Below are positions 24,878 to 36,859 of a stretch of DNA of 64,000 nucleotides, in pieces. The translations under genes were made by a program, and so were the position numbers. This DNA is from Arcobacter caeni (lineage in GTDB: Bacteria; Campylobacterota; Campylobacteria; Campylobacterales; Arcobacteraceae): contig NZ_MUXE01000005.1 of NCBI RefSeq assembly GCF_003063245.1, positions 1-64,000 of the forward strand, read 5' to 3'. Under the pieces are notes generated by a model. The model saw only the letters and a program-made list of their open reading frames with translations, did no database searches and was not told where the DNA came from. Numbering within the stretch: position 1 is the first letter of the stretch; every line of letters starts with the position of its first letter.

Positions 24878-25600
24878 ATGATAATTATACCTGCAAGATT
24901 AAATTCTAGTAGATTTGCAAATAAAATTTTAGTTGATATTTTAGGATTACCAATGGTAATTAGAACTGCAAAGCAAGTAAGCAGTTTGGATAAAGTAGTA
25001 ATTGCAACAGATTCTCAAAAAGTTATAGATTTAGCTTCAAAATACGGCTTTGATGCAGTTATGACATCAAGTTCTCACAATAGTGGAACAGATAGAATAA
25101 ATGAAGCTGTAAATATTTTAAATTTAAGTGAAGATGAAATAATTATAAATGTTCAAGGTGATGAACCTTTTATTGAAATTGAAGTGGTTCAAGCAGTTAT
25201 TAATAGAGTAAAACAAATAAAAGAAAACGATGAAAATATTATGATAACTTCTTGTTATAAAGAAATAAGCTCTGAATTAGCAGATGATCCAAATCATGTA
25301 AAAGTAGTTTTAGACGAACACTCAAATGCAATATATTTTTCACGAGCAAAAGTTCCATATCATAGAGATCATCATGAAAATACAAATTATAGTGGACATC
25401 TAGGAATTTATGGATTTACAAAAAAATCACTAAATGCTTTTTGTGAGTTAAAATCATCAGAATTAGAAAATATTGAAAAATTAGAACAATTAAGAGCCAT
25501 TGATAATGGACAAAAAATCGCTATGGTAAAAGTCATTTCTAAATCTTTTGGAATTGATACACAAGCTGATTTAGATAACGCTATTAGAATCTTTTCTTAA
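24878..25600 (+). CDS. kdsB: 3-deoxy-manno-octulosonate cytidylyltransferase
   Basis: Activates Kdo to CMP-Kdo for lipopolysaccharide core synthesis. The 240-aa protein has the family motifs IIIPARLNSSRFANKIL (CTP-binding loop), VVIATDSQKV, SGTDRINEA and NVQGDEPFIE, the Mg-binding site. An AGGAAG ribosome site lies close upstream. The last 30 nt overlap the end of the convergent MocA-like gene, so there is no spacer and no separate terminator. Confidence 0.95.
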   Translation: MIIIPARLNSSRFANKILVDILGLPMVIRTAKQVSSLDKVVIATDSQKVIDLASKYGFDAVMTSSSHNSGTDRINEAVNILNLSEDEIIINVQGDEPFIEIEVVQAVINRVKQIKENDENIMITSCYKEISSELADDPNHVKVVLDEHSNAIYFSRAKVPYHRDHHENTNYSGHLGIYGFTKKSLNAFCELKSSELENIEKLEQLRAIDNGQKIAMVKVISKSFGIDTQADLDNAIRIFS

Positions 25601-26167
25601 ATATAAATCCACATCTTCTGAAGTATCAATATCAATTGCCATTTCAGAAGATAATTCTAAAGTTATATGGGAATGTTTATTCAATAAAGATTTAGCTCCT
25701 TTATCTTCATTGAGTTTTAAAAGTTCTTCATAATATTTCTTAGGGAAGATTGCTGGAACCAAGGAATTATTATTATATTTTGAGGCAATTATTACTTCTG
25801 AAATTAAAGAACTTTTAAGTTCTTCATAATGAGAAGTTGGGATAAAAGGCTGATCACAAAGCATAATCATACTATTTTCAAAATCTTGGGTATATTTTAT
25901 TGCTTTTGAAATAGAAGTTCCCATTCCTTGGTGATAATTTTCATTAATTACGATATTAATATTAAAATCTTTTAACTCTTTCATACATTGTTCTTTTTCA
26001 TGCCCAAGTACAACAAAAACATCAGAAGAAATTTTTAATGCTTTTTTTACAGCAATTTTTATTAAACTTTCATCTTGATATTTCAAAAGTTGTTTCGTTT
26101 TTCCCTCAAGCCTTGATGACTTTCCTGCAGCTAAAATAATTACTGCTAAGTTTTTAGATTTTTCCAT
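25571..26167 (-). CDS. MocA-like nucleotidyltransferase (molybdenum cofactor cytidylyl/guanylyl transfer)
   Basis: A 198-aa nucleotidyltransferase that probably converts molybdopterin into its dinucleotide form for the hydroxylase encoded upstream in the same operon. Motifs are ILAAGKSSRLEGKTKQLL (nucleotide-binding loop) and MLCDQPFIPTSHYEEL. The start at 26167 is chosen because the protein then begins just before the conserved Rossmann-like strand and GAGG lies about 10 nt upstream; a longer frame from 26230 would lie within xdhC and adds no conserved sequence. It overlaps xdhC by 14 nt. For enzymes of this class MCD (cytidine) is the usual cofactor. Confidence 0.85.
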   Translation of the reverse strand: MEKSKNLAVIILAAGKSSRLEGKTKQLLKYQDESLIKIAVKKALKISSDVFVVLGHEKEQCMKELKDFNINIVINENYHQGMGTSISKAIKYTQDFENSMIMLCDQPFIPTSHYEELKSSLISEVIIASKYNNNSLVPAIFPKKYYEELLKLNEDKGAKSLLNKHSHITLELSSEMAIDIDTSEDVDLYLRKDSNSVI

Positions 26168-26936
26168 TTTTTTTTGCCTCGATTTGTGCACAAATTGAAA
26201 GAGCGATAGCTTGGTGAGTATTTCCACCAATATCTAATCCAATTGGAGCATAAAATCTTTTGTCATTGTTTAAATTAAATTCTTCTGTAATTCTTTTCAT
26301 ATTCTTTTTATTTCCCATCATTCCAATATATTCTATATTTGAATTTATAAGTGCTTTTAAGTAAGTATTATCAGTTTTTGGATTATGACTTAAGATAATC
26401 GCTGCATTATATAAATTTAAATCCATAGACAAAATATCTTCAATATTTTGTATTTCAATGAAATTATCAGCTTCATTAACATAATTTTTATTGATTTTAA
26501 TATCAATAATAGTTGTTTCCCAAGCCATCAAATTTGCCATAGAAATAAGCGAAGTAACATGAGCGCCTGAACCAAAAATCAAAATTGAATAAGGTCTTTT
26601 AATATATTCTGAAATATTATTATAATTATTTTCATAAAAAAAAGGCTCTATTTTGAACTTTGAATTTCCATGTCCTGATGATTCATCAGCAGGAATTGAT
26701 TCAAAATAAAGAGTTTTTTTACTAATCATTGCTTCTTTTGAAGATTCTAGTATTTTATTTTGTAAATATTTACTTCCTAAAACACCTGTAAATTCATTTT
26801 GTGAATTTACAAGCATCATATTTCCAACTTTGGCATAAGTTGAACCTTTCGTTTCAACTACACTTGTTATTACAATATCAAGTTTTTTATCTTTAGATTC
26901 TTCAATAAATTTTAAATAATCTTTATTTGTAAACAT
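26154..26936 (-). CDS. XdhC/CoxI-family maturation factor
   Basis: Chaperone of 260 aa that binds the sulfurated molybdenum cofactor and inserts it into hydroxylases of the xanthine dehydrogenase family. The N-terminal XdhC-CoxI domain has TSVVETKGSTYAKVGNMML, and the Rossmann-like C-terminus has ILIFGSGAHVTSL and APIGLDIGGNTHQAIALSIC, close to the family consensus. It lies 5 nt after the Mo-subunit gene and overlaps the MocA-like gene, as in other maturation operons. Confidence 0.9.
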   Translation of the reverse strand: MFTNKDYLKFIEESKDKKLDIVITSVVETKGSTYAKVGNMMLVNSQNEFTGVLGSKYLQNKILESSKEAMISKKTLYFESIPADESSGHGNSKFKIEPFFYENNYNNISEYIKRPYSILIFGSGAHVTSLISMANLMAWETTIIDIKINKNYVNEADNFIEIQNIEDILSMDLNLYNAAIILSHNPKTDNTYLKALINSNIEYIGMMGNKKNMKRITEEFNLNNDKRFYAPIGLDIGGNTHQAIALSICAQIEAKKNGKI

Positions 26937-26941
26937 AAAGT

Positions 26942-29083
26942 TTATCCCAATTTAATTGGAAAACTTGTATATCTTTTTCCTGTGGCATCTGCAAGTGCAT
27001 TAATAACTGCTGCAAACATTGGAGGAACTCCAACTTCACCTATTCCACCTATTTTTGCACCTGAATTTATGATTTCAACACTGATACTTTCTGGTGCATC
27101 TGCCATTCTATTTACTTCAAAATCATAAAAGTTATTTTGGTCAACTGCTCCATTTGTTAAAGTAATTTGAGCATATTTACAATAACCAATTGTAAAGTTA
27201 ACAGCACTTTCTATTTGATTTTCAACTCCAAGTGGATTAATAGCAAATCCACTATCAACGCTACTCCATACATGTTGTATTTTAAAGTCTTTATTTTCAA
27301 CTCTTACTTTAACAACCATTGCCACAATACTTCCAAATGATTCAACAATAGCCACACCATAACCGCTATTTTTTTCTCTATTTTTCCAGTTTGATTGAGT
27401 TGCTACATTTTCTAAAAGTTTCACAAATCTTGGATTTTCTAGGTTTTTGATTCTAAAATCAATTGGGTCCATATTTAAAGCAACCGCAGCTTGGTCAATA
27501 ATATTTTCAACTAATGGAGCGGATGTTGTATGCCCAACTGATCGTAACCATAAAACAGGAATAGGAGATTGTGGACAAAATGATTTTAATTCATGACTAG
27601 CAACTTTATACGGATGATTTGCAAAACCCTCTTTTTGAGTATCATCAATTCCATTTTTAAACATAAATCCCTCAAGAAACGTCCCTCTTGTGATTGATTG
27701 ATTTATAACCGCACCTTTAAATCCAGTAATATTTCCATCAACATCAACACTTAAAGAAGCACTACTTACAGTCATTGGTCTGTAATTTCCAGTTTTAATA
27801 TCATCTTCTCTTGTCCATAAAGTTTGAACAGCCCAAGGCTCATCTTTTGCTACATAAGCAGCATCAATTACAAAATCAAGATTTGCAGGTGCTCGTCTTC
27901 CAAAACTACTTCCTAAATAGTTTGTGTAATACTCAACATTTTCAGGATTTACGCCTAAAATTTTGGCGCAAGTATCTCTAAATAAACCTTGCATTTGACT
28001 ACCAACTGACATAAATGCTTTATCACCTTTATGATGAACTGTACAGTTTAAAGGTTCCATTGGAGCATGGGCTAAAAATGGAAAAGAATATTGGGCTTCT
28101 ACTATTTTATAAGCATTCTTAAATGCTTCATCTATATCTGAATCTTTTCTCATAATATTTATATCTTTTTTAAGATAATCTTTATACTCTTTTTCTAAAT
28201 CAGAGGTACTTACTTTTTCAAATTCTCCATTATCCCAAACAACTGTGATTTGTTCCATTGCATTTTTTGCTTGCCACCAATGAGATGCAATTACTGCAAT
28301 TTTTTCATTTGGAAGTTGTTTAATTTTTAAAACACCTGGCATATTTTTAGCTTTTGAGTCATCAAAACTTTTGATTTTTGCTCCAAATACTTTTGGTTGA
28401 ACAAGTGCTGCAAATTTCATATCTTTAACTCTTACATCAATACCAAAAATACCTTTTCCTGTGATTTTCTCTTCAACTTCAATTGGATGTCTTTTTAGTG
28501 CTTTTCCCATAAGTCTAAATTCACTTGGATTTTTTAAATCCACATCACTTGGAACTTGCATTTTTTTAATATCATTTACTAAACTTCCATAAGAGAGTTT
28601 TTCTTTTGTTCTTTTATTTATTACATATGAATCTTTTGTTTCAACATCGTATAATCTTACTTGCCATTTTTTAGCAGCTGCTTGTTTTAACATCAATCTT
28701 ACAGCAGCTCCCACTTTTCGAACACTTTCATTATGAAATTGAATAGAACCTGAACCACCTGTAATCATAAGTGGCATTCCTGGTCTATTATAAACTGGAT
28801 TTACTTTTGCTGGTTCAAAAATTATTTTATCCCAAGCTGCATCTAATTCATCTGCAATACATTGAGCCATTCCTGTATATATTCCTTGTCCCATTTCAAC
28901 TTGACCTAAAATAAAAGTAATTTTATTATCTACATCAATTTTGATAAAAGCATTTGGTTCTAAAATATTACTTTTTTGTGTAATAGTTGCTGCTTTACCT
29001 TTTGTAGGCAAATTAAATCCAATGACAAATGCTGATGTTAAAAGTGTGCTATTTTTTATAAATTCTCTTCTTTCTACTTTCAT
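26942..29083 (-). CDS. Molybdenum-binding subunit of an IorB-type aldehyde/N-heterocycle dehydrogenase, Tat-exported
   Basis: Large catalytic subunit (713 aa) of the xanthine oxidase family. The N-terminus has a twin-arginine signal: basic RREFIKNS, then a hydrophobic stretch ending near GKA, so the folded, cofactor-loaded enzyme should be exported by Tat. Family features include ILGQVEMGQGIYTGMAQC, GSSFGRRAP and IGGIGEVGVPPMF near the C-terminus with the catalytic Glu. The order with a small 2Fe-2S subunit and no FAD subunit fits the isoquinoline 1-oxidoreductase or membrane-linked aldehyde dehydrogenase group, which hands electrons to a cytochrome or quinone. The substrate cannot be told from the sequence. 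Confidence 0.9.
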   Translation of the reverse strand: MKVERREFIKNSTLLTSAFVIGFNLPTKGKAATITQKSNILEPNAFIKIDVDNKITFILGQVEMGQGIYTGMAQCIADELDAAWDKIIFEPAKVNPVYNRPGMPLMITGGSGSIQFHNESVRKVGAAVRLMLKQAAAKKWQVRLYDVETKDSYVINKRTKEKLSYGSLVNDIKKMQVPSDVDLKNPSEFRLMGKALKRHPIEVEEKITGKGIFGIDVRVKDMKFAALVQPKVFGAKIKSFDDSKAKNMPGVLKIKQLPNEKIAVIASHWWQAKNAMEQITVVWDNGEFEKVSTSDLEKEYKDYLKKDINIMRKDSDIDEAFKNAYKIVEAQYSFPFLAHAPMEPLNCTVHHKGDKAFMSVGSQMQGLFRDTCAKILGVNPENVEYYTNYLGSSFGRRAPANLDFVIDAAYVAKDEPWAVQTLWTREDDIKTGNYRPMTVSSASLSVDVDGNITGFKGAVINQSITRGTFLEGFMFKNGIDDTQKEGFANHPYKVASHELKSFCPQSPIPVLWLRSVGHTTSAPLVENIIDQAAVALNMDPIDFRIKNLENPRFVKLLENVATQSNWKNREKNSGYGVAIVESFGSIVAMVVKVRVENKDFKIQHVWSSVDSGFAINPLGVENQIESAVNFTIGYCKYAQITLTNGAVDQNNFYDFEVNRMADAPESISVEIINSGAKIGGIGEVGVPPMFAAVINALADATGKRYTSFPIKLG

Positions 29084-29086
29084 CTT

Positions 29087-29539
29087 TTATCCTTTTGCCA
29101 CAGCAGAAACTGCTTTTAATATTTTATTATAAGTACCACATCTGCAAATGTTTCCTTGCATTGCTTCTTTAATTTGTTCAGTTGATGGATTTTTATTCGA
29201 TTTTAAAAGAGCACTTGCATTCATAATCTGACCTGGCTGGCAATATCCACATTGTGCCACATCATGGTCTCTCCATTGAATTCTTAGAGATTTTATCTCT
29301 TTATCATCTTTATTTTCAATTGTTGTAATATTTTTATTAAAAGCTTCACTAATAGAAGTTGAACAACTTCTAATTGCTTTATCATCTAAAAGTACTGTAC
29401 AGGCACCACATTGCCCTACTCCACAACCAAATTTTGTTCCTGTCATATTTAAATAATCTCTTAATACCCAAAGTATCGGTGTATCTTCTGGCACATCTTT
29501 TAATTCATATTTTTTATTATTTATAATTACATTATTCAT
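29087..29539 (-). CDS. 2Fe-2S subunit of the molybdenum hydroxylase (IorA-like)
   Basis: Small electron-transfer subunit of 150 aa with two 2Fe-2S clusters. The plant-ferredoxin-type cluster is ligated by GCGVGQCGACTVLL and a later Cys in IRSCSTS. The second, helical cluster uses AQCGYCQPGQIM and GNICRCGTYNK. It has no signal peptide, so it probably crosses the membrane bound to the Tat-targeted large subunit, 3 nt downstream. It is the first gene of the four-gene Mo operon, divergent from the AraC regulator across a spacer with operator-like repeats. Confidence 0.93.
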   Translation of the reverse strand: MNNVIINNKKYELKDVPEDTPILWVLRDYLNMTGTKFGCGVGQCGACTVLLDDKAIRSCSTSISEAFNKNITTIENKDDKEIKSLRIQWRDHDVAQCGYCQPGQIMNASALLKSNKNPSTEQIKEAMQGNICRCGTYNKILKAVSAVAKG

Positions 29540-29601
29540 ATTTTCTCCTATACTATAAAAATTTTATCTATTTTAATTATAGATTAATAAAAAAATTTCT
29601 A

Positions 29602-29640
29602 ATAGAACAATATTACAAATAACTTGCCTAATTCTCTAAA
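29602..29640. promoter_or_regulatory. Operator-like block 1 in the Mo-hydroxylase / araC spacer
   Basis: Two elements abut here. The first, 29602-29632, begins ATAGAACAATATTA and matches 24 of 31 bases with 34503-34533. The second, 29624-29640, is an inverted copy (on the - strand TTAGAGAATTAGGCAA) of the motif found at 29657, 30670 and 34549. The position is suited to a regulator acting on the divergent promoters. Confidence 0.55.
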
Positions 29641-29656
29641 TATATTTATTTTATTA

Positions 29657-29675
29657 AAATTGGAGGATTAGGCAA
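29657..29675 (+). promoter_or_regulatory. AGRATTAGRC operator-like motif upstream of the AraC gene
   Basis: AAATTGGAGGATTAGGCAA ends 83 bp before the AraC start. It matches AATTTGTAGAATTAGGC (34549) at 14 of 17 bases. With the inverted copy at 29624-29640 it forms TTGCCTAAT / ATTAGGCAA, a possible loop or dimer site. A second inverted piece, ATTCTCTAA / TTAGAGAAT, is at 29631-29639 and 29681-29689. Confidence 0.55.
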
Positions 29676-29758
29676 ATAAATTAGAGAATCTTTATATCAA
29701 TTTTCTTAGTTATTTTATATAATATAATAAACTTAGCTATACAATGTAAGGAAAATTT

Positions 29759-30670
29759 ATGAATACCAATTTAGATGAATATCGATTTGATTTGATTAAT
29801 TTTCTAAAAGACAAATATGATTTAAGTGGAGCTATTCAATCAAAAATACCTTGTTTAGATTTTTATTTTTCAAATATTCAATCAGAATTTAATAGTATTA
29901 TGTATGAGCCTTCTTTATGTATTATTTTACAAGGAAGTAAAGCAGTGGGATTTGGAAATAAAATGTATGCTTACAATAACAAGGAATATTTGCTTTCTTC
30001 AACCCATCTTCCTGCAAATGTAAAAATAACCCAAGCATCACAAAATGAACCTTATATGTCATTTAGAATTAGATTTAATATTGAAGATATTTATCAAGTT
30101 TTAAAAAATACAAACCCAGATAAACTTTTATTTCAAAAGAAATCTGAAAAAGGTCTCTTTTTTGATGATTTAAACCTGAGATTATATGAGCCAATTTCAA
30201 GACTTATAAAACTTTTGGATAAACCAGATGAAGATATAAATTATTTATCCCCATTTATTATTAAAGAAATTTTATATGTTTTGGTTAATGATAAAAGTGG
30301 CTTTTTCTTGAATAAATTTGCAATGGAGGGAACAACATCAAATAAAATTGTTAAAGCCATAAGTGAAATAAAAAACAATTTTAGTGAAAAACTCAATATT
30401 AAAGAATTAGCTGATTCCATTGAAATGAGTGAATCTTCTTTATATCAAAATTTTAAAACTATAACATCAATGTCACCAATTCAATTTCAAAAAAAACTTA
30501 GACTAGATGAAGCAAAGCAGCTTTTACTTGTTCGAAATATAGAAGTTTCTCAAGTAGCTTTTATGGTTGGGTATGAAAGTCCTTCACAATTTAGTAGAGA
30601 ATTTTCAAGAATGTTTGGGATGTCTCCAAAAGCTCATACAGAATCACTAAAAATACAAACAAATATTTAA
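29759..30670 (+). CDS. AraC-family transcription regulator with AraC_N domain (YqhC-like)
   Basis: Regulator of 303 aa. The N-terminal cupin-like AraC_N domain (about 15-170; PSLCIILQGSKAVGFGNK is the typical opening) is followed by two helix-turn-helix motifs (about 200-295; IKELADSIEMSESSLYQNFK and VAFMVGYESPSQFSREFSR). This subfamily includes E. coli YqhC, which activates an alcohol dehydrogenase and an aldo-keto reductase in response to reactive aldehydes. Here the same kinds of genes follow at 30766 and 35855. The same motif lies upstream of this gene, of the dehydrogenase and of the MFS gene, suggesting autoregulation and control of the whole cluster. The inducer is not known. Confidence 0.9.
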   Translation: MNTNLDEYRFDLINFLKDKYDLSGAIQSKIPCLDFYFSNIQSEFNSIMYEPSLCIILQGSKAVGFGNKMYAYNNKEYLLSSTHLPANVKITQASQNEPYMSFRIRFNIEDIYQVLKNTNPDKLLFQKKSEKGLFFDDLNLRLYEPISRLIKLLDKPDEDINYLSPFIIKEILYVLVNDKSGFFLNKFAMEGTTSNKIVKAISEIKNNFSEKLNIKELADSIEMSESSLYQNFKTITSMSPIQFQKKLRLDEAKQLLLVRNIEVSQVAFMVGYESPSQFSREFSRMFGMSPKAHTESLKIQTNI

Positions 30671-30689
30671 ATTTGTAGAATTAGACAAT
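30670..30689 (+). promoter_or_regulatory. AGRATTAGRC operator-like motif upstream of the alcohol dehydrogenase
   Basis: AATTTGTAGAATTAGACAAT starts at the last base of the AraC stop codon and ends 76 bp before the dehydrogenase start. It differs from the copy at 34549-34568 at only two of 20 positions, too close for chance in unrelated spacers even in AT-rich DNA. Confidence 0.6.
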
Positions 30690-30765
30690 TAAAATAGAGT
30701 ATTTATCTAACAATGATCTTAACAAATCAATTATAATTAAAATATCAAATATTTTAGGAATAAAA

Positions 30766-31806
30766 ATGAATAATTATGTAAAAACAAGAGCTTATGCTGC
30801 TTTTGATGAATCAGGAATATTAAAACCTTGGACTTTTGAAAGAAGAACTGTTGGAGATAATGATATTTTAATTGAAATCAAATTTGCAAGTATTTGTCAT
30901 TCTGATATTCATCAAGAAAAAGGTCATTGGGGAAAACAACAATATCCTCAAGTTCCAGGACATGAAATCGTAGGAGTTGTAACTGCTATTGGTAAAAATG
31001 TTACAAAATTCAAAGTGAGTGATAGAGCAGGAGTTGGTTGTATGGTTGATGGTTGCACTACTTGTGAGGAAGAACAATATGAAGATGGTACAAAATTTAC
31101 TTATGGATATTCTGATGAAAGAGAACCTACAAAAATTACTCAAGGAGGATATTCAACTCATATTGTTGTAAATAATCATTTTGCAGTACATATTCCAGAT
31201 AATTTAAGTTTTGAAAAAGCAGCTCCACTTTTATGTGCAGGAATTACAACTTATTCACCAATTATGAAAGCCAAAATTAAAAAAGGTGATAAAGTTGCTG
31301 TTGCTGGAATTGGAGGATTAGGACATATGGCTGTAAAACTAGCTGTTTCAAAAGGAGCAGAAGTTTATGCCTTTACTACAAGTGCTGATAAAGTAGAAGA
31401 TATTAAAGCTTTTGGGGCTAAAGAAGTAATTGTTGTAGATAATAAAGAAAAATTCTTAGCATACCAAGGACAAATGGATTATATGATTTCTACAATTCCT
31501 TATCAATTTGATGTGGCTTCATATGCTAGTGTTGTAAAACCTTATGGTTTTTTTACACAAGTTGGAATGCCTGAGAATTTTCAAATTACTCTAAATAATC
31601 TTGGACTATCTGTAAGTAGAGTTAATTTTAATGCTTCATTAATTGGTGGAATGAAAGAAACTCAAGAGATGATTGATTATTGTGCAAAAAACAATGTATT
31701 ACCTGAAATCCAAATTATAAAAGCAGATGAGATAAATCAAGCTTGGAAAAATGTAGAAAATAAAAAAGCTCGATACAGATATGTTATTGATGTAGCAACA
31801 ATTTAA
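30766..31806 (+). CDS. Zinc-type NAD(P)-dependent alcohol dehydrogenase (YahK/CAD-like)
   Basis: Medium-chain dehydrogenase of 346 aa, probably reducing aldehydes to alcohols with NADPH. Catalytic zinc ligands are visible: Cys44 (SICHSDIHQ) and His66-Glu67 (PGHEIVG). The Rossmann loop is GIGGLGHMA. The structural-zinc loop is unusual. Family members normally have C-x2-C-x2-C-x7-C; here Cys97 and Cys100 are present, but the third Cys is missing in a shortened loop and the fourth position appears to be Glu (CTTCEEEQYEDGTKF). The protein may lack the structural zinc. It is followed after 18 nt by the cyclophilin-like gene and sits under an operator-like motif shared with the AraC gene. Confidence 0.9.
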   Translation: MNNYVKTRAYAAFDESGILKPWTFERRTVGDNDILIEIKFASICHSDIHQEKGHWGKQQYPQVPGHEIVGVVTAIGKNVTKFKVSDRAGVGCMVDGCTTCEEEQYEDGTKFTYGYSDEREPTKITQGGYSTHIVVNNHFAVHIPDNLSFEKAAPLLCAGITTYSPIMKAKIKKGDKVAVAGIGGLGHMAVKLAVSKGAEVYAFTTSADKVEDIKAFGAKEVIVVDNKEKFLAYQGQMDYMISTIPYQFDVASYASVVKPYGFFTQVGMPENFQITLNNLGLSVSRVNFNASLIGGMKETQEMIDYCAKNNVLPEIQIIKADEINQAWKNVENKKARYRYVIDVATI

Positions 31807-31824
31807 TGGATTTTTGAATAAAAC

Positions 31825-32241
31825 ATGAAAATTAAATATTCAATTATTTTGTGCTTGTTTCTATTTATACAAAGTTTTACGATTGGAATGGCAAATGAAA
31901 TAAAAGTAATCATAGGAACAAATGTATTTGTTGCAACTTTGTTTGAAAATGAAACAGCCAAAGAGTTTAAAAAAATGTTACCCATAACACTTAATATGAA
32001 TGATTTGAATAAAAATGAAAAATATTTTCATTTTTCTAAAAGTTTTCCCAAAGATAAGTTCAGTCCGGAAATGATTAATTCTGGTGATTTAATGTTATGG
32101 AATGATGATAGTTTAGTTCTTTTTTATAAAACTTTTTCAACTAACTATCAATATACAAAAGTTGGAAAAATTGATAATCCCAATATGTTAGCTCAAACTC
32201 TTGGAAGTGATGATATAAAAATTACTTTTGATTTAGAATAA
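31825..32241 (+). CDS. Secreted cyclophilin-like fold protein
   Basis: A 138-aa protein with a signal peptide (about 1-23, ending GMANE) and a single small beta-barrel domain of the cyclophilin-like type: IKVIIGTNVFVATLFENETA near the start and SGDLMLWNDDSLVLFYKTF in the middle are typical. It is not a standard peptidyl-prolyl isomerase, as the catalytic Arg and FHR motif are absent. Such proteins often travel with AraC-controlled oxidoreductases and C-S lyases in bacterial clusters, as here. Its function is unknown; a periplasmic binding or folding role is possible. Confidence 0.8.
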   Translation: MKIKYSIILCLFLFIQSFTIGMANEIKVIIGTNVFVATLFENETAKEFKKMLPITLNMNDLNKNEKYFHFSKSFPKDKFSPEMINSGDLMLWNDDSLVLFYKTFSTNYQYTKVGKIDNPNMLAQTLGSDDIKITFDLE

Positions 32242-32246
32242 TTTCT

Positions 32247-32281
32247 AACCATACAAGAATAAAAACTCTTCTTGTATGGTT
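32247..32281. terminator. Strong hairpin terminator after the cyclophilin-like gene
   Basis: Perfect 13-bp stem AACCATACAAGAA / TTCTTGTATGGTT with a 9-base loop. There is no long T-run, but stem strength and position, 6 nt after a stop and before the convergent C-S lyase gene, support termination. Confidence 0.6.
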
Positions 32282-32335
32282 AATCTTACATAAATAATTT
32301 ATAAATTTTCAAAGGTTTATAAGGTTTATATTGTC

Positions 32336-33514
32336 TTACAATTCTTTTTTACATTTGATAGTATCAATAGAGTTGTAAAGTCTATTTAGTCCATCTTTAA
32401 GTGTATCCATTGGACAAGCAATATTAATACGGATAAACTCTTTAGCATTTTCTCCATAGGTTGTTCCAGATGCAATACGAAGTTTTCCAATTTGTCTGAT
32501 TTGTTCAACTAAAGCTTCAGATTCTATTTTTAGTGCAGAACAATCAATCCACATAAGATAAGTTGCTTCTGATTTAATGACTTTTAATTCAGGTATGTTT
32601 TGTCCAATATATTCCATAAGATAATCTCTGTTATTTTCCAGATAAATTAAAAGTTCATCCAACCAATCTTCACTTCGCATATAGGCACTGATTAAAGCTT
32701 CAATACCAAATACATTAGGTTCAATGGATTCATTAATATTAAGTGAACGGTTAATTTTGCCTTTATACTCTTGATTTGCAACAATAATATTTGAAGTCTT
32801 TAAACCTGCAAGATTGAAAGTTTTACTTGGTGATGTACAAGTAATAGTATTTTGTAAGAATCTATCATTAATAGAAGCCATGGGGGTATATTTTGAATCA
32901 CTAAAGACTAAGTCTCTATGAATTTCATCACTTATTACAATGACATTATATTTTAAACATAACTCTCCCATTTCTGTCAATTCCTCTTTACTCCAAACCC
33001 GTCCCACTGGATTGTGAGGATTACATAAAATAAAAAGTTTTACTTTTTCATCTTTAACTTTTTCTTCAAAATCAACAAAGTCAATGTGATATTTTTCTTT
33101 TTCATAAATTAAATTATTGCTTATTAGTTCACATTTGTTGTTAGTAATAGAGCTGTTAAAGTAGTTGTAAACAGGTGATTGTATGAGTACTTTGTCTCCT
33201 TTATTACAAAAAGCTTGTACACTTGCACTTAGTGATGGAATAACACCTACAGTGGGTTCAATCCACTCTTTTTTTATTTTGATATTATGTCTTTTCTTCC
33301 ACCAGTATATTTCAGCATCATAATATTCTTTTGGAATCATGGTGTAGCCAAATACACCATGAAGTGCTCTAAATAATATGGAATCAATAATTGGAGTTGC
33401 TGCTTTAAAATCCATATCAGCAACCCACATAGGAAGTACACCATTTTCTGTTGTATCCCATTTTGAACTATTGGTATGGAGTCTATTTATAATTTTATTA
33501 AAGTTATAGTTCAT
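32336..33514 (-). CDS. PLP-dependent C-S lyase / aminotransferase (MalY/PatB family)
   Basis: A 392-aa class I/II aminotransferase-fold enzyme, likely a cystathionine beta-lyase type C-S lyase releasing pyruvate, ammonia and a thiol. Signatures are LPMWVADMDF at the start, FILCNPHNPVGRVW, VISDEIHRDLVF with Asp196, and SPSKTFNLAGLKTSN with the PLP Lys231. It is 10 nt downstream of the DUF3737 gene and within the AraC-flanked cluster. Cleavage of thiol conjugates after electrophile stress is a possible role; a part in ovothiol synthesis (OvoB-like) cannot be excluded but is not supported by position. Confidence 0.9.
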   Translation of the reverse strand: MNYNFNKIINRLHTNSSKWDTTENGVLPMWVADMDFKAATPIIDSILFRALHGVFGYTMIPKEYYDAEIYWWKKRHNIKIKKEWIEPTVGVIPSLSASVQAFCNKGDKVLIQSPVYNYFNSSITNNKCELISNNLIYEKEKYHIDFVDFEEKVKDEKVKLFILCNPHNPVGRVWSKEELTEMGELCLKYNVIVISDEIHRDLVFSDSKYTPMASINDRFLQNTITCTSPSKTFNLAGLKTSNIIVANQEYKGKINRSLNINESIEPNVFGIEALISAYMRSEDWLDELLIYLENNRDYLMEYIGQNIPELKVIKSEATYLMWIDCSALKIESEALVEQIRQIGKLRIASGTTYGENAKEFIRINIACPMDTLKDGLNRLYNSIDTIKCKKEL

Positions 33515-33524
33515 CTAAAAAACC

Positions 33525-34388
33525 TTAGTCTATTTTATTTTCAATTTCAATTTGTAAAAGGTCATTTTGTTCATCTAAAATAAGTTCTTTTATCTCTTTT
33601 GCTTTTAAATAACCACTCAATGGATTTTTAACACTCATAATAGAAGAAGTAATCGTTGCATTAATAGTAGAATCTTCGAAAGCTAAGTCTGTATCAATCA
33701 TTTCACAATTTTCTAATACAAGATTTTTTGCATAACATAAAGGTTGCGTACCAATAATTGTACAATTTACAAATTTAAGATTTTTAGAATACCATCCAAG
33801 ATATTCGCCTTCAATAATAGAATCATATATGGTTACATTCTCACTGTTCCAAAAAGCATCTTTCGATTTAATCTTAATATTCTTTGCAACAATATTTTGT
33901 GTGTGTTGGAAAGAGTAGTTGCCCTCCAAATGAAAATCATTCATCTCAATATTATTACTGTGAAATAATAAATAATCTCCTTGAAAATCAACCTTATCAA
34001 TAATAATATTATTACAATCCCATAAAGTTTCATTTGTATTAAGAGTGCTGTTTTTTATGGTAATATTTTTAGCATCTCTGAATATTTTTGCAGAATTAAC
34101 TTCACAGTTTTCTAATAAAATGCTATCAGAATACCAAATACTAGCTCTTGCTCCATCATTGAAAATACTTTTAAATATATGAACACGTGTATCGTGCCAA
34201 AAAAGATATTTACTTGAAAATTCACATTGTATTGCATTAATATAATTGACAAATTTCAAACCAGATTCACCTTGAACAAATTGACAGTTTTTTAAATCGA
34301 TATGGTGTGATTTAAATAAAGGTCTTTCACCTTCAAAAATTTTATTTTCCAATAAGTGTATGTTTTTATTAATAGTACAATTCTTCAT
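33525..34388 (-). CDS. DUF3737 right-handed beta-helix protein
   Basis: A 287-aa protein made of short repeats in which N/D/S, aromatic and I/V residues recur about every 20 residues (NSENVTIYDSIIEGEYLGWY, and YSKNLKFVNCTII), predicting a right-handed parallel beta-helix. It matches my knowledge of the DUF3737 family, whose function is unknown. It has no signal peptide. It is the first gene of a two-gene unit with the C-S lyase and is divergent from the MFS exporter across a spacer with operator-like motifs. Confidence 0.85.
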   Translation of the reverse strand: MKNCTINKNIHLLENKIFEGERPLFKSHHIDLKNCQFVQGESGLKFVNYINAIQCEFSSKYLFWHDTRVHIFKSIFNDGARASIWYSDSILLENCEVNSAKIFRDAKNITIKNSTLNTNETLWDCNNIIIDKVDFQGDYLLFHSNNIEMNDFHLEGNYSFQHTQNIVAKNIKIKSKDAFWNSENVTIYDSIIEGEYLGWYSKNLKFVNCTIIGTQPLCYAKNLVLENCEMIDTDLAFEDSTINATITSSIMSVKNPLSGYLKAKEIKELILDEQNDLLQIEIENKID

Positions 34389-34502
34389 TTTGTGTTTATG
34401 TACCTTTCTTTATATAATATTAGTTTCTTTGTCGAAATGATTATAAAGGCTTTAATATAGTCTTAAATCTTATGTCAGTATATAATAAATGCTAAATTGC
34501 TT

Positions 34503-34568
34503 ATAGAACAATATTATAAAATGATTGCACAATAATATAAATAAATTAAATTTGTAGAATTAGGCTAT
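34503..34568. promoter_or_regulatory. Operator-like block 2 in the DUF3737 / MFS spacer
   Basis: The spacer of 274 bp holds two elements also seen upstream of the AraC gene. At 34503-34533 a segment starting ATAGAACAATATTA matches 29602-29632 at 24 of 31 bases. At 34549-34568 AATTTGTAGAATTAGGCTAT differs from 30670-30689 at two positions. The distance between the two elements is 45 bp here and 55 bp in the first block, about one helical turn different. Both sit 95-160 bp upstream of the MFS start. Confidence 0.6.
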
Positions 34569-34662
34569 AAATATCTATAATTATTCTATCTATAATAATT
34601 ACCAACTGATATAATTTATTTGTAAAAAAATTATATGAAGAGATTATTAAAAAAGGTATTTA

Positions 34663-35844
34663 ATGAAAGAAAATGAAAAAACCACTCCCTTATGGAGTGC
34701 AGTTTGGGCAATGTCTTTATGTGCTATGGTTTTGGTAGCATCTGAGTTCATGCCTGTTAGTTTACTAACACCACTTGCCACAGATTTAACTATAACAGAG
34801 GGATATGCTGGGCAATCTATATCAATTTCAGGTCTGTTTGCATTAGTAACTAGTCTTTTTTTAACTTCAATAATTGGACATACAAATAGACGAACGGTAT
34901 TGCTGTTTTTTACTGTTTTAATGGGAATATCAGGTGTTATTGTGGCATTTGCTCCAAATGCGATGATTTTAATGATAGGACGAGCTATTTTAGGAATATG
35001 TATTGGCGGTTTTTGGTCAATGTCCGCAGCAACTATTATGCGTCTTGTTCCCTCAAATTTAGTTCCTAAAGCATTGGCAATTTTAAATGGTGGCAATGCT
35101 TTATCAACGATGATAGCAGCACCTCTTGGAAGTTTTTTGGGAGGAATTATTGGTTGGAGAGGAGCATTTTTTTGCATTGTTCCCTTTGCGATTATTGCTT
35201 TTATTTGGTTATATAAAACTATGCCATCACTACCATCAAGACACACTTATGGTCACAGACCAAAATTAAGTAGTGTATTTAAACTGTTAAAACAATGGAA
35301 AGTCACTTTAGGAATGTTTTCAACTATGCTATTTTTTATGGGGCAATTTGCTCTTTTTACTTATCTTCGCCCTTTTTTAGAAACTCAAACAAAAGTTGAT
35401 TTTGAAATATTATCTTTAATTTTATTAGTTATGGGAATTGGTGGACTTATTGGAACTTTTATTATTGGAAATATTTTAAAAACTAGACTTTATAGTTTAT
35501 TGATTATTACACCATTTTTAATGATGTTGATTGTTATTGGGCTTATTTATTTTGCACATTCTTTAATAGCAATATTTATTTTGATGGCTCTTTGGGGATT
35601 TTTAGGAACTTCTGCTCCTGTTGCTTGGTGGACTTGGCTTAGTAAAACTTTACCCCATGAAGCAGAAGCTGGTGGTGGATTGATGGTTGCAATTATTCAA
35701 TTAGCGATTACTTTAGGAGCATCATTTGGGGGAATATTTTTTGATATTTATGGATACGAAATCACATTTGTATTTAGTGCAATAATATTAGCTATGGCAA
35801 CTTTAATGGCAAGTATTACGGCTTTTTACACTTATAAAAAGTAA
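34663..35844 (+). CDS. MFS exporter (DHA1 drug/nucleoside efflux type)
   Basis: A 393-aa transporter with 12 hydrophobic helices and a drug:H+ antiporter style: VASEFMPVSLLTPLATDL in helix 1, GHTNRRTVLL after helix 2 and GRAILGICIGGFWSM in helix 4 (motif C region). It resembles NepI/AraJ-like exporters. The substrate is unknown; export of a toxic metabolite would fit the aldo-keto reductase that follows after 10 nt. Operator-like motifs upstream tie it to the AraC regulator. Confidence 0.88.
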   Translation: MKENEKTTPLWSAVWAMSLCAMVLVASEFMPVSLLTPLATDLTITEGYAGQSISISGLFALVTSLFLTSIIGHTNRRTVLLFFTVLMGISGVIVAFAPNAMILMIGRAILGICIGGFWSMSAATIMRLVPSNLVPKALAILNGGNALSTMIAAPLGSFLGGIIGWRGAFFCIVPFAIIAFIWLYKTMPSLPSRHTYGHRPKLSSVFKLLKQWKVTLGMFSTMLFFMGQFALFTYLRPFLETQTKVDFEILSLILLVMGIGGLIGTFIIGNILKTRLYSLLIITPFLMMLIVIGLIYFAHSLIAIFILMALWGFLGTSAPVAWWTWLSKTLPHEAEAGGGLMVAIIQLAITLGASFGGIFFDIYGYEITFVFSAIILAMATLMASITAFYTYKK

Positions 35845-35854
35845 AGGATAAAAA

Positions 35855-36859
35855 ATGAAATACACAAAATTTGCAAATACAAATATAGAGTTATCAAAAA
35901 TTGGTTTAGGTTGTATGGGAATGAGTGCAGCTTATGGAGAGGATAAAGATGACAAAGAAAGTATCGCAACACTAGAGCGTTCAATTGAACTGGGAATTAA
36001 TTTTTGGGATACAGCAGATATTTATGGAAAGGGTGTAAATGAAGAGTTGATTTCACAAGTTCTTAAAAATAATAGAGACAAAATATTTATTGCCACAAAA
36101 TTTGGATTTAGAATGCCAAATGACACAGGTAATTCTTTTAGTGGAGATATTTATATAGATTGTTCACCAAAACATATCAAAGAAGCTGTTGAAAAAAGTC
36201 TAAAAAGATTAAAAGTTGATGTTATTGATTTATATTATGCCCACAGAATTGACCCAAATATTCCACTTGAAGATACAATAGGAGCAATGTCAGAACTTGT
36301 AAAAGAGGGAAAAATAAAATATTTGGGTCTTAGTGAATGTACGGCTGATGAATTAAAAAAAGCCCATGATATACACCCTATTTCAGCACTTCAAAGTGAA
36401 TATTCCCTTTTATATAGAGAAGTTGAAAAAGAGATTTTACCTTTGACGAAAAAGCTGGAAATTACTTTTGTTCCTTTTGCACCACTTGGGCGAGGTTTAA
36501 TGTCAAATAAGCTGGATATTAGTTCTCTTTCAAACAATGATTTTAGAAAAAATCTTCCAAGATATAAGGGTGAATATTTAGAAAATAATATGAAGTTATC
36601 ACAAGCTTTAGAAGAATTGGCAATTAATAAAAATGCAACAACAGCACAACTTGCAATTGCTTGGGTAATTGCTCAAAGTGACAACATTATTCCAATTCCT
36701 GGAACTAAAAAAAGAAAATATTTAGAATCAAATGTAGGTTCTGTTAATTTAAATTTAGATTCATCTGATTTAGAAAAAATCGAAGATATATTAAAGATGT
36801 ATCCAAATGTCGGACCTAGATATTCAGCAAGAGAAAATAAGTTTGTTAAAAAATCATAA
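35855..36859 (+). CDS. Aldo-keto reductase
   Basis: A 334-aa NADPH-dependent (beta/alpha)8-barrel reductase for aldehydes or ketones. The catalytic tetrad is visible: Asp and Tyr in FWDTADIYGKG, Lys in FIATKFGF and His in YYAHRIDPN. The C-terminal nucleotide-binding part has IPIPGTKKRKYLESNVG. It resembles the AKR13-like/YakC group. It is co-transcribed with the MFS gene and, with the alcohol dehydrogenase at 30766, gives the cluster two carbonyl-reducing enzymes. Confidence 0.92.
   Translation: MKYTKFANTNIELSKIGLGCMGMSAAYGEDKDDKESIATLERSIELGINFWDTADIYGKGVNEELISQVLKNNRDKIFIATKFGFRMPNDTGNSFSGDIYIDCSPKHIKEAVEKSLKRLKVDVIDLYYAHRIDPNIPLEDTIGAMSELVKEGKIKYLGLSECTADELKKAHDIHPISALQSEYSLLYREVEKEILPLTKKLEITFVPFAPLGRGLMSNKLDISSLSNNDFRKNLPRYKGEYLENNMKLSQALEELAINKNATTAQLAIAWVIAQSDNIIPIPGTKKRKYLESNVGSVNLNLDSSDLEKIEDILKMYPNVGPRYSARENKFVKKS

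Follow-up and report, generated by a model that had tools for sequence, protein, structure and literature searches.

What controls the genes around the AraC-family regulator in the first 64,000 nucleotides of the Arcobacter caeni contig NZ_MUXE01000005.1 (the whole stretch analysed, called the window here)? An earlier note, made from the sequence alone, had pointed to four copies of a motif with the core AGRATTAGRC in the spacers of this locus and had assigned them to the regulator, whose cluster it compared with that of YqhC in Escherichia coli. Our analysis finds five such sites, and they are very likely the operators of the adjacent regulator, a YqhC-like member of the PF06719 AraC family that would act as a self-activating class II activator of an aldehyde/redox detoxification regulon. 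The assignment of the operator and its regulon is well supported, and the predicted regulon comprises five promoters and eleven genes in the window.

The four copies were recovered as exact matches at the reported places (29626-29635 on the minus strand, 29664-29673, 30677-30686, and 34556-34565), and no further exact copy of AGRATTAGRC occurs in the 64-kb window. The agreement of the third and fourth copies at 18 of 20 bases was confirmed on the sequence, as were the distances of 83, 76, and 94 bp from the forward copies to the starts of the AraC, alcohol dehydrogenase (ADH), and MFS genes. The inverted copy, which had been left unpaired, ends 84 bp ahead of the start of a divergent molybdenum (Mo) operon (29539, minus strand), and thus all four copies face a gene at a similar distance. 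In all, the genome (2.42 Mb, with 99.98% completeness) holds 20 exact copies versus 2 for the reversed pattern. As claimed, the four copies lie in spacers, and they are the only ones in the genome outside every open frame of at least 80 amino acids; the other 16 are within open frames of 209 to 824 amino acids. Intergenic copies are therefore confined to this locus rather than scattered at random. When one mismatch was allowed, the window held no clear excess of the core over shuffled sequence (21 versus 15.8 copies); by itself, the core is therefore weak evidence, and its context is decisive.

The core is real, but it makes up just the upstream portion of a longer element. An ungapped alignment of 53 intergenic Arcobacteraceae sites, picked by the core alone, gave TTTRKAGAATTAGGCAAtnnntnTRGAntAtTnTTCTAtt followed by TATAAT at positions 55-60, and a simple site of 10 or 20 bp was rejected for a 33-bp operator, a direct repeat with 21-bp spacing (AGRATTAGGCAA-N9-A..ATT..TCTA). 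In self-comparison, the repeat identity peaked at an offset of 21 bp, with 6.2 of 12 identities in the Arcobacteraceae sites versus means near 3, and a -10-like hexamer was found at position 55 in 44 of 52 sites. At the four core copies of the window, TATAAT follows 44 or 45 bp downstream of the 10-bp core, and in each of the five promoters the -35 position is where the promoter-proximal half-site ends. The distance that is constant is the one to the -10 box and not, as described earlier, the one to the start codon. The four sites were retained, but a fifth, weaker one toward the DUF3737-PatB genes had been missed; it appeared as a profile match at 34541-34477 (minus strand), is absent from the training sets of both profiles described below, and has a second half-site, AATATTGTTCTA, identical to that of the Mo-oxidoreductase operator.

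The window regulator scored 128 bits against PF06719 (cut-off 24.2) and 76.6 bits against HTH_18, and it is the sole PF06719 protein in its genome. Orthologues, defined by at least 50% identity, are present in 22 of 104 Arcobacteraceae genomes, and the core recurs near nearly all of them, mostly 60 to 130 bp ahead of starts, so the sites are conserved in relatives. A first profile, R1, matched 22 of 22 genomes with the orthologue versus 4 of 82 without it. Because its training included the window's own sites, this split is partly circular, and profile R2 was made to avoid that by training on 21 sites, all from other genera, and was run on 31 same-genus genomes. R2 found exactly five sites in the window's genome, with whole-genome E values of 1.2e-10, 1.8e-9, 1.4e-8, 3.7e-5, and 1.6e-4, and no match beyond these across that genome at an E of 0.01 or below. 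It matched 11 of 11 same-genus genomes with the orthologue versus 2 of 20 without it (Fisher p 9e-7), and both exceptions were weak matches (G020, where a 37%-identical paralogue is present, and G023, partial). Some circularity remains in R2, as its training sites were found through the core given in the earlier note; the independent part is the sequence outside the core and the placement. A relaxed 16-bp pattern (TTRKAGAATTAGRCAA, one mismatch) was rejected as too loose to tell genomes with the regulator from those lacking it, with 93 of the 104 genomes matched and similar counts for the reversed control. Taken as predicted operators of the adjacent AraC regulator, the sites are supported by co-occurrence, conservation, confinement to the locus, and class II placement.

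In the family, 13 R1 sites in 12 genomes stood ahead of the regulator gene itself. The other genes behind R1 sites were the [2Fe-2S]/molybdenum operon (12), small proteins (11; the one scanned is a cupin), cyclophilin-like proteins (7; these have a site of their own in seven relatives), zinc ADH (4), Fe-ADH (4), MFS transporters, DUF3737 (3, so that this protein has a site in three relatives as well), GFO/IDH oxidoreductases (3), aldo/keto reductases (AKR; with a site of their own in one relative, G021), and luciferase-like and metallo-beta-lactamase-fold proteins. The gene content varies between species while the element stays constant, a pattern that speaks against a conserved spacer merely passed on by descent.

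The same element stands beside PF06719 regulators outside the family. An alignment-based scan provided 77 usable PF06719 loci from other phyla (a scan of genome contigs with a single protein gave none), and 55 of them had a half-site within 450 bp upstream at no more than one mismatch, with 0.62 expected from dinucleotide shuffles; the density of half-sites upstream was about 86 times that elsewhere in the same loci. Among plasmid-borne relatives identified with tblastn, 9 of 15 carried a half-site in the spacer upstream of the regulator; it departed from AGAAWTAGGCAA at no more than one or two positions, which equals at most one mismatch to AGRAWTAGGCAA. The consensus outside Campylobacterota was AGGATYAGGCAA-N9-AGGATTGGGCTA, the repeat peaked at 21 bp with 7.2 of 12 identities (means near 3), and a -10-like hexamer stood at position 56 in 37 of 56 sites. 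The loci with the element include ones from Bacillota, Pseudomonadota, Cyanobacteriota, Nitrospirota, Planctomycetota, Verrucomicrobiota, and Campylobacterota, and the 43 divergent neighbours included 15 AKRs and 11 short-chain dehydrogenases/reductases (SDRs). These SDR- and AKR-linked regulators, which are uncharacterised, share the operator and a -10 box at 56-61 and mostly face a divergent SDR or AKR gene. However, they usually have this one divergent target, whereas the predicted regulon of the window spans the locus, and its regulator gene runs in the same direction as the ADH gene. It is likely that most PF06719 regulators, in at least seven phyla, read one code, AGRATYAGGCAA-N9-AGGATTGGGCTA or an AT-rich form of it, followed after about 21 to 22 bp by a -10 box at a fixed position. 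If this is true, the regulons of many uncharacterised PF06719 regulators would be readable from sequence, across phyla.

E. coli YqhC, the closest characterised relative, likewise consists of AraC_N and HTH_18 in the same scan and has carbonyl-reductase targets; it was reported as an activator of yqhD in the aldehyde response (PMC6115493, PMC5297802). The K-12 yqhC-yqhD spacer contains AGAAATAGGCAA (L111 2236) and, after N9, AGAAATGAGCAT (2257), half-sites near-identical to those of the window, arranged in the same 21-bp direct repeat and equally far from the -10 box. The yqhD promoter has TTGAGA as its -35 and CACAAT as its -10 hexamer (PMC6115493, quoting Lee 2010); counted from the repeat, these occupy positions 33-38 and 56-61, which differ from the window layout by no more than 1 bp. 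The same promoter was described as containing a SoxS-like site and a 24-bp palindrome, not a direct repeat (PMC6115493), but in the spacer (L111 2236-2296) these two reported elements also fit a 21-bp direct repeat. If this is true, the YqhC operator, which serves in aldehyde biosensors, would be a direct repeat and not the reported palindrome. A literature search for the operator sequence returned no relevant paper, and an earlier description of the direct repeat in the primary YqhC papers cannot be excluded. The comparison with the YqhC aldehyde cluster in the earlier note is supported, in that yqhC-yqhD shares the direct repeat and the promoter spacing. There are also differences: YqhC binds one spacer by genomic SELEX (gSELEX; PMC8249747), whereas the window regulator has five predicted promoters, including those of a molybdenum oxidoreductase, an MFS transporter, and a C-S lyase, and it has an operator ahead of its own gene. 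The Fe-ADH behind a site in relatives is 32% identical to E. coli YqhD, and the window AKR shares only about 26% identity with DkgA.

The I1-I2 region of araBAD is built of two direct-repeat half-sites 21 bp apart, the promoter-proximal one at -35, as in class II activation. The window operators have the same tandem half-sites, the same period, and the same proximal placement; AraC differs in its half-site sequence and sensor domain, and the window element recurs at several promoters. By this model, a regulator dimer would bind two tandem 12-bp half-sites head-to-tail on one face of the DNA, with four consecutive major grooves occupied by its four helix-turn-helix units. Upon sensing a reactive aldehyde or related electrophile, it would recruit RNA polymerase to the promoters of araC, the molybdenum aldehyde oxidoreductase, ADH-cyclophilin, MFS-AKR, and DUF3737-PatB, and the bound regulator would aid the polymerase at promoters with a good -10 box and without a clear -35 box. 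Since the regulator's own promoter carries the same element, positive autoregulation is likely. The system is an additional YqhC-type PF06719 regulon, and what it adds to known systems is the direct-repeat operator with fixed promoter spacing shared across phyla, together with the different view of the YqhC operator to which it leads. For the window's genus, it provides a base-pair-resolution map of five predicted operators of an aldehyde/redox-stress regulon.

By analogy with YqhC (PMC5297802, PMC6115493), a reactive carbonyl compound is the probable signal, and the enzymes behind the window operators include an Ahr-like ADH, an AKR, and a molybdenum aldehyde oxidoreductase-like enzyme. Several points weigh against a YqhC-like aldehyde regulon of five promoters. 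The inducer of YqhC is itself unresolved, and whether aldehydes act on it directly is not known (PMC5297802); the two regulators share only 31% identity; the window dehydrogenase, a zinc enzyme of the Ahr type, is not a YqhD homologue; and the DUF3737 site is weak, with a degenerate first half-site (ATTATTGTGCAA) that has lost the AGGC core. Additionally, the molybdenum enzyme and the C-S lyase among the targets suggest a signal wider than aldehydes. The sites could be operators of the AraC regulator while the regulator responds to another kind of signal, for example an antimicrobial that the MFS transporter exports, a thiol compound, or an aromatic or N-heterocyclic substrate of the Mo enzyme. 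The low identity to YqhC is consistent with such a signal, as are the molybdenum hydroxylase, the C-S lyase, and the MFS transporter in the window and the cupin and luciferase-like proteins in relatives. However, carbonyl reductases (AKR, SDR, and ADH) dominate the targets across phyla, and we regard a non-aldehyde signal as a genuine but tentative possibility.

Autorepression is common in the AraC family, the same site stands at the regulator's own promoter, and the divergent operators are 28 bp apart (29635/29664) and could interact. These observations would fit a regulator that represses, or that represses and activates as AraC does. This is unlikely, as the operator lies upstream of the -10 box at all five promoters, in class II placement, and leaves the -10 box and the start uncovered, and activation is what has been described for E. 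coli YqhC, which shares this geometry. A generic promoter element, or one belonging to another regulator or a sigma factor, would account for the -10 box that always accompanies the motif, but 18 of the 20 same-genus genomes without the AraC orthologue lack the motif, and it occurs in this genome at this locus only and beside PF06719 regulators in many phyla, which makes this explanation very improbable. Chance similarity among AT-rich spacers, for which the poorly enriched one-mismatch core would speak, is hardly credible given exact copies outside genes at four promoters only, E values down to about 1e-10 for the full element under an independent model, and conservation of both sequence and position. 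Both the chance and the generic-promoter explanations were rejected on the co-occurrence seen with R2, the upstream density, and the intergenic confinement.

The predicted activator regulon and its promoter elements are listed in Table 1. The order of the XdhC-like and MobA-like genes is retained in relatives.

Table 1. Genes, predicted operators, and -10 boxes of the AraC locus (positions in the window)
Feature	Position	Strand	Remarks
AraC-family regulator, 303 amino acids	29759..30670	+	AraC_N (PF06719) and HTH_18; domain scan
Mo-oxidoreductase operator	29603..29635	-	Half-sites 29624-29635 (AGAATTAGGCAA) and 29603-29614 (AATATTGTTCTA); 21-bp direct repeat
Mo-oxidoreductase promoter -10 box, TATAAT	29576..29581	-	
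araC operator (predicted autoregulation)	29664..29696	+	Half-sites 29664-29675 (AGGATTAGGCAA) and 29685-29696 (AGAATCTTTATA)
araC promoter -10 box, TATAAT	29718..29723	+	
ADH-cyclophilin operator	30677..30709	+	Half-sites 30677-30688 (AGAATTAGACAA) and 30698-30709 (AGTATTTATCTA)
ADH promoter -10 box, TATAAT	30732..30737	+	Distance to operator 1 bp longer; compare E. coli yqhD
MFS-AKR operator	34556..34588	+	Half-sites 34556-34567 (AGAATTAGGCTA) and 34577-34588 (ATAATTATTCTA)
MFS promoter -10 box, TATAAT	34610..34615	+	
Weaker fifth operator, toward DUF3737-PatB	34504..34536	-	Half-sites 34525-34536 (ATTATTGTGCAA) and 34504-34515 (AATATTGTTCTA)
DUF3737 promoter -10 box, TATACT	34477..34482	-	
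[2Fe-2S] subunit, aldehyde oxidoreductase-like	29087..29539	-	Fer2, Fer2_2; first gene of the divergent operon; domain scan
Molybdopterin-binding large subunit	26942..29083	-	MoCoBD_1, MoCoBD_2; domain scan
XdhC-like maturation factor	26154..26936	-	Mo operon member by position; assigned from sequence and position, without library scan
MobA-like nucleotidyltransferase	25571..26230	-	End of Mo operon by position; assigned without library scan
Zinc alcohol dehydrogenase	30766..31806	+	Top NCBIfam match NADPH-dependent aldehyde reductase Ahr, under cut-off
Cyclophilin-like protein	31825..32241	+	Cyclophil_like2; starts 18 bp past ADH
DUF3737 protein	33525..34388	-	Domain scan
PatB-family C-S lyase	32336..33514	-	TIGR04350, over cut-off
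MFS transporter	34663..35844	+	Top NCBIfam match NepI, under cut-off
Aldo/keto reductase	35855..36859	+	Starts 10 bp past MFS gene

The pairing of DUF3737 with the PatB C-S lyase is also retained in relatives, and at least three of these carry a site in front of it. The ADH homologue of G025 (L051 8224-9399) is split into two open frames of 180 and 144 amino acids and is probably interrupted, with the operator ahead of it intact.

PF06719 paralogues with 36-41% identity occur in Arcobacteraceae (L074-L079) behind a gene of about 250 amino acids, SDR-like in size, and the promoter of this gene carries the same core 71 to 78 bp before a start. Cross-talk between paralogue and orthologue is possible where both occur (G009 and G067). 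Two PF06719-like AraC genes are adjacent or nearly so in the relatives G061 and G057 (L059 6147-10411 and L060 8517-10368).

The sensor domain of the window regulator has a cysteine, Cys54, in an EPSLC motif, and YqhC has no such cysteine. It is present in 97 of 114 PF06719 regulators, a set whose retrieval pattern favoured it, and in 7 of 8 plasmid-borne ones retrieved without the pattern. The alignment-based scan used the peptide patterns VGY[EQ]SxSQF and EP...[CF]...QG, so conservation counts at those residues are biased, and for this reason the evidence used here leaves aside how well Cys54 and the second helix are conserved. It is possible that Cys54 senses electrophiles.

Two Paenibacillus loci (L204 5172 and L225 4871) have a second full operator-like element downstream of the regulator, suggesting further targets there. 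The same-genus genome G013, which has no regulator, contains TTGTAGAATTAGGGAA five times at intervals of exactly 498 bp (G013:C1:23494-25501), which represents a tandem repeat of 498-bp units.

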